This document shows, piece by piece, positions 19,842-20,962 of a stretch of DNA of 64,000 bases. This stretch comes from Chryseosolibacter indicum (GTDB lineage: Bacteria > Bacteroidota > Bacteroidia > Cytophagales > Cyclobacteriaceae). The DNA lies in assembly GCF_018598585.1 (NCBI RefSeq), contig NZ_JAHESD010000007.1, positions 1-64,000 on the forward strand. The letters run 5' to 3'. The notes beneath the pieces were generated by a model. It saw only the letters and a list, made by a program, of their open reading frames with translations, was not told the origin of the DNA and did not search any database. Each line of letters opens with the position of its first letter. Position 1 is the first letter of the stretch. The position numbers and the translations under genes are program-made.

Positions 19842-19916
19842 GGGAGCTTAGCTCAGCTGGTTCAGAGCATCTGCCTTACAAGCAGAGGGTCGGGGGTTCG
19901 AATCCCTCAGCTCCCA
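19842..19916 (+). tRNA. tRNA-Val (anticodon UAC)
   Basis: A full cloverleaf can be drawn over 75 bases. Acceptor GGGAGCT pairs with AGCTCCC, D-arm GCTC/GAGC, anticodon stem TCTGC/GCAGA with loop CTTACAA giving anticodon TAC (valine), T-arm GGGGG/CCCTC with loop TTCGAAT, discriminator A. The 3' CCA is not encoded. Flanked by an exact promoter and a terminator, so it is a single-gene unit. Confidence 0.97.
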
Positions 19917-19922
19917 CATCAC

Positions 19923-19956
19923 AAACCTCGGTCTAAAACCGAGGTTTTGTTTTTTA
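19923..19956 (+). terminator. Rho-independent terminator after tRNA-Val
   Basis: Perfect nine-pair stem AAACCTCGG (19923-19931) with CCGAGGTTT (19939-19947), seven-base loop, followed by a T-rich tail TGTTTTTT. Confidence 0.88.
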
Positions 19957-20123
19957 TGCCACCTTTACGTTCGACAAGATCCAGGAACGCTCACTCGTAG
20001 TCCTATTATTGCAAAGGCCGTAGATTCCGTCGCAATTTCTTTGGCACATTATAGTCTCTCGCGTAGGCACGAATTACAGATGAAAAGCGTGCTCCTTTTA
20101 TTTAATAAATAACATTTAAATAG

Positions 20124-20239
20124 CTGGCAAATACATTCTGCCAGTACCGTGCGAGCACCATGCCAGCACCATGTCTGCGAGAAAATACCCCCGTTTCTCG
20201 CAGACATACCGCACGCACGGTGCCGGCATGGTGCTGGCA
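20124..20239. repeat. Large nested imperfect palindrome, possibly REP/MITE-like
   Basis: A 14-pair perfect inner stem ATGTCTGCGAGAAA (20171-20184) / TTTCTCGCAGACAT (20194-20207) with a nine-base loop lies inside outer arms TGCCAGCACCATG (20161-20173) / CATGGTGCTGGCA (20227-20239); CCGTGCG (20147-20153) also matches an inverted copy in the right arm. The left side repeats AGCACCATG directly (20154-20162, 20165-20173), and near-copies lie inverted on the right. A smaller hairpin CTGGCA/TGCCAG (20124-20144) precedes it. The element looks richer in G and C than its A/T-rich surroundings. No T-run follows. Confidence 0.7.
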
Positions 20240-20346
20240 TCGGAGACTCCCGAGCTTCTTAGCCTGTTATGAGGATGGGTAAGCTGGACTGCCTGGCAAA
20301 AGCGCATCTGAGCTGCAGTTGAAGGTTTCTTCAGTTAAAACTTTAT

Positions 20347-20377
20347 TTTGAATTGTCCGTTTCAGAATACATATTTG
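20347..20377 (+). promoter_or_regulatory. TetR-gene promoter
   Basis: TTTG (20347-20350), spacer of 19, CATATTTG (20370-20377): one mismatch from TAnnTTTG. The predicted start falls at or close to the ATG at 20384, suggesting a very short leader or leaderless message. Confidence 0.5.
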
Positions 20378-20383
20378 CCTCCG

Positions 20384-20962
20384 ATGCCGCGCAATGTTGA
20401 GTTTAACGAAGAAGAAGCAATCCAAAAAGCCATGGAAGTTTTCTGGGAGAAAGGCTATAATGCTACTTCGCTTCGCGACCTCACAGATGCTATGAAAATC
20501 AACAGTAGCAGCCTTTACAACACTATAGGTGATAAGCAGGAATTATTCGTAAGGTGTGTTAAGCACTATACCGACATCAGGAAAAGAGACCTTCAAAAGC
20601 GGTTGGCTAGTTCAAAATCTCCGTTTACCATACTGGTTGACTACATTAACGATGCTGTTGATGTTATCATCAGTGGCGATAACAGCTGTATGGCCGTGAA
20701 GACAGCTTTTGAGGTGGCAACCAATGATCAACGCGTTAAGGATATTCTTAAAGAAGACAGCGGCTCTGCCTATCAGTTCTTATACACATTGATCAAAAAA
20801 GCTATTGAAGAGGGGGAGATATCTCCGGAAGAAGATGCCGAGGTACTTGCTGACTACTTCATCAGCACCTGGACGGGCTGGTACGAGTCGTACATTCTTC
20901 ATAAAGATCCTATCAAGATCAGGAAGATGGCGCAGTACTTCATTAAACAAATCTCCAAGTAA
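20384..20962 (+). CDS. TetR/AcrR-family transcriptional regulator
   Basis: One-component repressor. The N-terminal helix-turn-helix is clear (AMEVFWEKGYNATSLRDLTD, then MKINSSSLYNTIGDKQELF), followed by a helical ligand-binding domain (192 residues in all). An in-frame TTG 36 bases upstream overlaps the promoter -33 element, so ATG 20384 (MPRNVEFN) is chosen. The next gene encodes an SDR in the same direction 93 bases on, with repeated sequence between them, which suggests that the regulator controls the SDR gene. Ligand unknown. Confidence 0.9.
   Translation: MPRNVEFNEEEAIQKAMEVFWEKGYNATSLRDLTDAMKINSSSLYNTIGDKQELFVRCVKHYTDIRKRDLQKRLASSKSPFTILVDYINDAVDVIISGDNSCMAVKTAFEVATNDQRVKDILKEDSGSAYQFLYTLIKKAIEEGEISPEEDAEVLADYFISTWTGWYESYILHKDPIKIRKMAQYFIKQISK

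Follow-up and report, generated by a model that had tools for sequence, protein, structure and literature searches.

REP elements are palindromes of 20-40 bp that end in GTAG or CGTC, and MITEs are foldable, non-coding and multicopy sequences of 70-300 bp, as both are characterised in the portion of the source that concerns them (PMC3733652). CarH operators, as set out in one section of the report on them, carry tandem 11-bp repeats at the promoter, and the DNA-binding domains are stacked there along a single face of the helix (PMC9304148). Direct repeats of 11 bp, as presented in part of another source, also make up the PHO box of Streptomyces coelicolor (PMC9019756).

Here we report an imperfect palindrome from a stretch of 64,000 nucleotides of the Chryseosolibacter indicum genome, the whole of which we refer to as the window. 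The palindrome is multicopy and foldable, it is built of 11-bp units, and it is linked to a gene family related to DUF6266 (PF19781). On balance we favour, if not strongly, the reading that the window palindrome is the relic of a multicopy cassette whose array is a protein-binding platform, with the cassette's own protein as the likeliest ligand.

Results

An array of 11-bp units arranged as a palindrome

The core of the palindrome occupies positions 20139-20239 of the window. Its 46-base arms, on the forward strand at 20139-20184 and 20194-20239, pair imperfectly along their whole length, with 36 of the 46 positions matching, around a 9-base loop (20185-20193). The left arm is made of four 11-bp units, three of the TGCCAGCACCA type and one of the TGTCTGCGAGA type plus AAA, which follow one another in the order TGCCAGTACCG, TGCGAGCACCA, TGCCAGCACCA and TGTCTGCGAGA; after the loop, like units follow in inverted orientation as the right arm. 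The 11-bp spacing that defines an array of such units is found in both arms of the window copy.

An earlier note on this DNA had described a 14-pair perfect stem lying inside 13-pair perfect outer arms. The inner stem (20171-20184 with 20194-20207) is indeed perfect in all 14 pairs. The 13-pair arms exist as well (20160-20172 with 20228-20240), but they do not form a separate outer shell: they share two bases with the inner stem and lie at least one 11-bp unit out of register with the full-arm alignment, a slipped pairing that the run of 11-bp units in each arm allows. The 9-base word AGCACCATG is present as reported, twice directly, at 20154 and 20165, and once inverted, at 20227, the spacing of the two direct occurrences being exactly 11 bases. 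The palindrome is also richer in G+C than its surroundings (0.61 versus 0.41-0.43 in flanks of about 500 bases each) and is followed by no T-run, both as described before.

Aligned copies share more than the palindrome itself. An AT-rich lead (20117-20138, forward strand; consensus ...rTrGCTTGGGAATGAATCC) precedes the left arm, and a tail (20240-20272, forward strand; consensus TCGTACATTTCGAAGCTTATTACCCTGATAT) follows the right arm. The copies align over 5' lead, arms and 3' tail, and identity is at background level outside about 20117-20272. The start first given for the element, 20124, hence falls within the repeated lead, and the bounds of the shared element have to be moved outward from it.

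Copies in the genome and in relatives

The search of the whole genome for copies that the earlier note had proposed, carried out as a DNA search of the 5.8-Mb genome (183 contigs), found 20 other places, several of them truncated by contig ends. With the window included, the element is a dispersed repeat at 21 places, as had been suspected. A covariance model built from 17 copies found 18 full-length places in the same genome, the window among them, and no copy in 38 other genomes; a DNA search was negative in all 97 relatives covered, among them two of the same genus. The set of 17 copies, on which alignment, identity and covariation are based, leaves out L022, L025, L026 and L027, which are cut by contig ends or strongly divergent. 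Mean pairwise identity in this set is 71% in the lead at 20121-20138, against 31% further left; it is 81% in the left arm and 85% in the right arm (the highest value), with the lowest value, 53%, in the loop between them, and 64% in the tail, falling to 35% beyond.

The palindrome had been put forward as a possible REP- or MITE-type mobile repeat next to a tRNA gene, with a search for a REP-associated transposase as a check. It is not a REP by its form, being 101 bp instead of 20-40 bp long and carrying no GTAG or CGTC tag at the stem base in the aligned copies. Four Y1_Tnp hits were found in the genome, and none of these loci (L029-L032) holds a copy of the palindrome. A REP/RAYT system is hence ruled out by size, by end tag and by the missing linkage to the Y1_Tnp loci. 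As to MITEs, the element is multicopy and non-coding, but its inverted repeat is flanked by a lead and a tail that are unlike. Other GC-rich palindromes, of the GCGTCCGC type, were seen by eye beside a Y1 transposase fragment (L029:1150-1250) and are possibly the true REP-like elements of this genome.

The proximity of a tRNA gene proved to be incidental: of the 20 other copies, a single one has a tRNA in its neighbourhood of about 2 kb, at a distance of 1 kb. In the window, tRNA-Val(tac) lies outside the element at 19842-19917 on the forward strand, and directly 3' of it stands a hairpin with a T-run (arms 19923-19932 and 19938-19947), so that the palindrome sits past the likely terminator of this gene. 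A same-genus relative has tRNA-Val without the palindrome. On the other side, again outside the element, is an open frame of 204 aa (20348-20962, forward strand) for a putative TetR-type regulator.

A gene cassette and its probable relics

In several copies the similarity does not stop at the tail but extends across the motif CCGCGTATGGATTGCGG and a TAnnTTTG box as far as the beginning of an open frame. The complete cassette starts with an array of 11-bp units, continues with a promoter-proximal inverted repeat that carries a TAnnTTTG box, and ends with the gene for a DUF6266-related protein of about 186 aa. Two copies have an intact gene directly downstream (L010/L042, 185 aa; L021/L041, 186 aa), and the products of these genes are about 70% identical. 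At L012, L015, L017 and L022 the motif is followed by just the first 15-40 bases of the gene; by eye, a decayed reading frame is still recognisable in L012. A promoter-proximal motif is retained in 9 of the 20 copies examined, 76-243 bp downstream, and is of the CCGC-N9-GCGG type in seven of these and TTTGACACTATTTGTCAAA in two. The exact CCGCGTATGGATTGCGG occurs six times in the genome, and all six occurrences adjoin a palindrome copy.

The TAnnTTTG box, which was read by eye, is presumably the Bacteroidetes -7 consensus. A strict scan for TTG-N17-21-TAnnTTTG promoters downstream of the 20 copies gave no match, and we therefore claim the box alone. The motif TTTGACACTATTTGTCAAA is itself a perfect or near-perfect palindrome that stands about 60 bases before many paralogs and occurs at 35 places in the genome (for example G000:C33:53220-53238); the few occurrences with no listed gene after them may be further relics. 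L018 and L019 combine one subfamily's palindrome with the promoter motif of a different subfamily, a hint that arrays and genes have been shuffled.

Both the promoter-proximal motif and the gene are absent from the window copy, which we therefore read as a relic and not as a complete cassette: it would have lost motif and gene and kept only the array with its lead and tail. Against a pure relic stands the finding that the arms (81-85%) are better conserved than the lead (71%) and the tail (64%), though most copies are gene-less. Solo arrays may therefore still be in use, or they may have been homogenised by recombination.

11-bp arrays upstream of family genes

The period of the DNA before family genes was taken, in 400 bases upstream of each gene, as the best self-match shift among 7-30 in a 60-base window, with ties split. 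The count in three genomes leaves out L050, L051 and L054, as truncated or nearly identical copies, and all regions shorter than 300 bases. Period 11 came top upstream of 21.5 of 33 genes in the C. indicum genome, of 16.5 of 20 in G015, where many genes are close copies and the counts are not all independent, and of 8.5 of 15 in G017; downstream of the same genes the counts were 1.0/33, 1.5/20 and 1.0/15. Among controls it came top in 5.6 of 319 far tiles and 8.2 of 159 window tiles, and upstream of 2.5 of 36 other long open frames in the window. None of 200 shuffles in any of the three genomes matched the observed count.

DUF6266 genes taken from genomes phylum-wide are a more independent set, and in these period 11 was top in 16.0/29 upstream against 1.0/29 downstream (Fisher p 2e-5). 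Starts were corrected for this count, which covers 30 loci, with L199 (only 160 bases) left out upstream and L172 downstream. The loci derive from 37 matches, of which L165, L166, L174 and four others were unused; L209-L211, which duplicate other loci of the count, were also left out. Arrays of 11-bp units thus recur before DUF6266-superfamily genes in many Bacteroidota. Period 11 was not top in about one third of the C. indicum paralogs, in nearly half of the 15 G017 genes and in 13 of the 29 DUF6266 genes; it was not dominant at all at the single G002 gene, and the three G088 genes have an 11-bp period downstream instead of upstream. The association between the DUF6266 superfamily and a locus-specific 11-bp array was not found in the literature searched and is, to our knowledge, unreported; the same literature yielded no paper on DUF6266.

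In most cases, 80-300 bp separate the array from the start codon, with the promoter-proximal box in between, and the unit sequence of the array differs between subfamilies within one genome. Arrays are direct or palindromic, the direct form being commoner. Six tandem units of the CTAACTATATR type are found at L170, and units of the GGATATAGAAT type at L203, while the DUF6266 locus L205 has a palindromic 11-mer array with 27-bp perfect arms of CCATATCAAGG-type units, an independent counterpart to the folded array of the window. By eye, an AAAA(A)GGGC-TTTT centre recurs between the array halves of MGKI-type genes (L044, L045, L046, L132); before the genes at L136, L139, L142 and L133, a short inverted repeat, likewise seen by eye, varies from gene to gene while its halves remain complementary.

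The gene family

The protein of L041 has 40 matches in its own genome at E<=0.1, itself included, or about 40 paralogs. No Pfam model matched any of 31 aligned family members below E 0.003, the scores in a Pfam scan of nine members were all far under the curated cut-offs, and none of eight members tested had an NCBIfam match above cut-off. PF19781 found no match in the C. indicum genome, in a scan in which control sequences likewise gave none. Aligned by hhalign with a set of 12 DUF6266 proteins, the family profile matched with a probability of 96.7% (E 3.9e-10), and we therefore place the family in the DUF6266 superfamily, though the Pfam model is silent in this genome. Seven PHROGs queries with family proteins were without match.

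The family is patchy, being present in 7 of 117 genomes, the C. indicum genome included, with about 20 copies in G015, 19 in G017 (Chryseolinea sp. H1M3-3), three in G088 and one each in G002, G013 and G034. Many other repeats share the islands in which the cassette genes of G015 (L112-L126) lie, and the open frames there often continue into differing C-terminal tails. The duplicates L053 and L054 (97%) are recent, and their similarity extends about 90 bases beyond the stop codon, ending shortly after a terminator-like hairpin; the duplicated stretch therefore spans the gene with its terminator. On the upstream side, both are truncated by contig ends.

An AlphaFold2 model of the cassette protein (pLDDT 91) has short strands plus three helices in its N-terminal part and a C-terminal beta part. 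A fold search with the whole protein gave nothing at E<=0.001, and the best matches, of the whole protein as of the C-terminal beta part, were mostly Ig-like domains. With the model of the N-domain (pLDDT 89) the search was likewise empty at E<=0.001, and no known DNA-binding fold could be recognised in it. This domain is strongly basic in all four sets, with a median net charge of +8 to +13 and a median pI of 10.2-10.4.

Discussion

Eleven bases make up about one helical turn, and the units of the array therefore present the same DNA face again and again. PhoB boxes, too, have an 11-bp head-to-tail spacing. We suggest that a protein would stack along one face of the array, upstream of the gene's own promoter, in the way that CarH does on its tandem 11-bp repeats. 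A protein-binding hairpin array was among the possibilities named in the earlier note, and it was a good guess. The most likely ligand would be the cassette's own protein, with its strongly basic N-terminal domain as the candidate part, and such binding of a gene's own product would provide for the self-regulation of a multicopy gene that is probably mobile or duplicating. Binding, mobility and regulation are what we infer. A single reader for all arrays would be hard to reconcile with their units, the sequence of which is too variable within one genome for one regulator to recognise them all.

The main rival to a protein-binding platform gives the array a role in mobility: a transposase or recombinase would recognise it in trans as a palindromic or iterated end, solo copies would be MITE-like, non-autonomous elements, and the gene would be cargo. 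We regard this as possible, but decidedly the less likely of the two. It would account well for dispersed intergenic copies in all neighbour orientations, for a patchy family with many copies in few of the 117 genomes, and for the recent duplicates L053 and L054, which end just past the hairpin 3' of the gene. The loop, moreover, is flipped relative to the other copies at L016:1989-2089 and L018:2012-2112, a sign that the inverted arms may have served for recombination or flipping. On the other hand, no transposase is linked to the element, the four Y1_Tnp loci being devoid of copies. The element ends are ragged among the aligned copies, and a target duplication could not be defined; a comparison with G001 and G002 defined no empty site, as the right flank is not conserved there. 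Most arrays are direct and do not have the form of terminal inverted repeats, and the promoter motif or gene remnants kept in 9 of 20 copies fit the decay of cassettes better than independent hopping.

An action as RNA, in which the palindrome would be a long hairpin in a transcript (a small RNA, an mRNA stabiliser or an attenuator), appears improbable to us. The earlier note had allowed for a structured RNA, and the strong folding that this calls for is real: the fold has an energy of -72.7 kcal/mol versus -36.7 +/- 3.6 in 200 shuffles, none of which was as good (z -10), and 82.7% of cells pair in the 17 copies. The pairing, however, is not backed by covariation above shuffles (score 0.076 versus 0.075 when shuffled, with 196 of 500 shuffles as high), and in Rfam only tRNA reached the gathering score. 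Since a complete cassette has its array upstream of the promoter-proximal box, the gene's own message probably does not include the array; most arrays are direct repeats, which form no long hairpins, and the window copy is located past the likely tRNA-Val terminator. From its location between tRNA-Val and the regulator gene, the palindrome might be taken for a terminator or local cis-regulator of one of them. This is highly improbable, given that the 20 other copies have unrelated genes on either side, whether convergent, tandem or divergent, and all but one have no tRNA within about 2 kb, that tRNA-Val already has a hairpin and T-run of its own, and that the same-genus relative retains tRNA-Val without the palindrome.

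Returning to the protein-binding platform, we would extend it to the whole superfamily only as a conjecture, which we ourselves consider rather doubtful. DUF6266-superfamily genes would then be widespread, multicopy and self-addressed, each cassette having in its array, direct or palindromic, a private 11-bp code read by its own basic N-domain. Array and protein would co-diverge, tens of mutually insulated copies would coexist per genome, and solo arrays would be abandoned or decoy addresses.

An odd palindrome has in this way become an entry point into a large gene family of no known function. Should the arrays prove to be binding sites for the family's own proteins, a single genome would supply dozens of naturally diverged protein-array pairs, ready for studies of how DNA-binding specificity evolves; as mobility ends, they would point to an undescribed route for the multiplication of small genes in Bacteroidota. 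In both cases DUF6266-type genes gain, in the 11-bp array, a property that can be tested.

Among known systems, REP/REPIN elements and RAYTs have in common with this element that they are short, dispersed, GC-rich intergenic palindromes limited to one lineage, but the element described here is about 101 bp long, is composed of 11-bp units, lacks the GTAG/CGTC tag and is linked to a DUF6266-like gene. MITEs, as far as the cited account of them goes, are likewise short, non-coding, foldable and multicopy, whereas defined terminal repeats, a target duplication and a parent transposase were not found for the palindrome element. CarH operators share tandem 11-bp repeats at a promoter, and here it is spacing and position alone that agree; the CarH units have one consensus and overlap the promoter, while the unit here is specific to each gene subfamily, some arrays are palindromic, the usual position is 80-300 bp before the start codon and the two proteins are not related. 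The 11-bp head-to-tail spacing recurs in the PHO boxes of OmpR/PhoB-type regulators (PMC9019756), but these represent one regulator and one consensus, with no linked multicopy gene family. For the gene itself, the known counterpart is DUF6266 (PF19781): the proteins of the C. indicum cassettes fall short of its Pfam model, but they match it profile to profile, and DUF6266 genes, too, have 11-bp arrays upstream.
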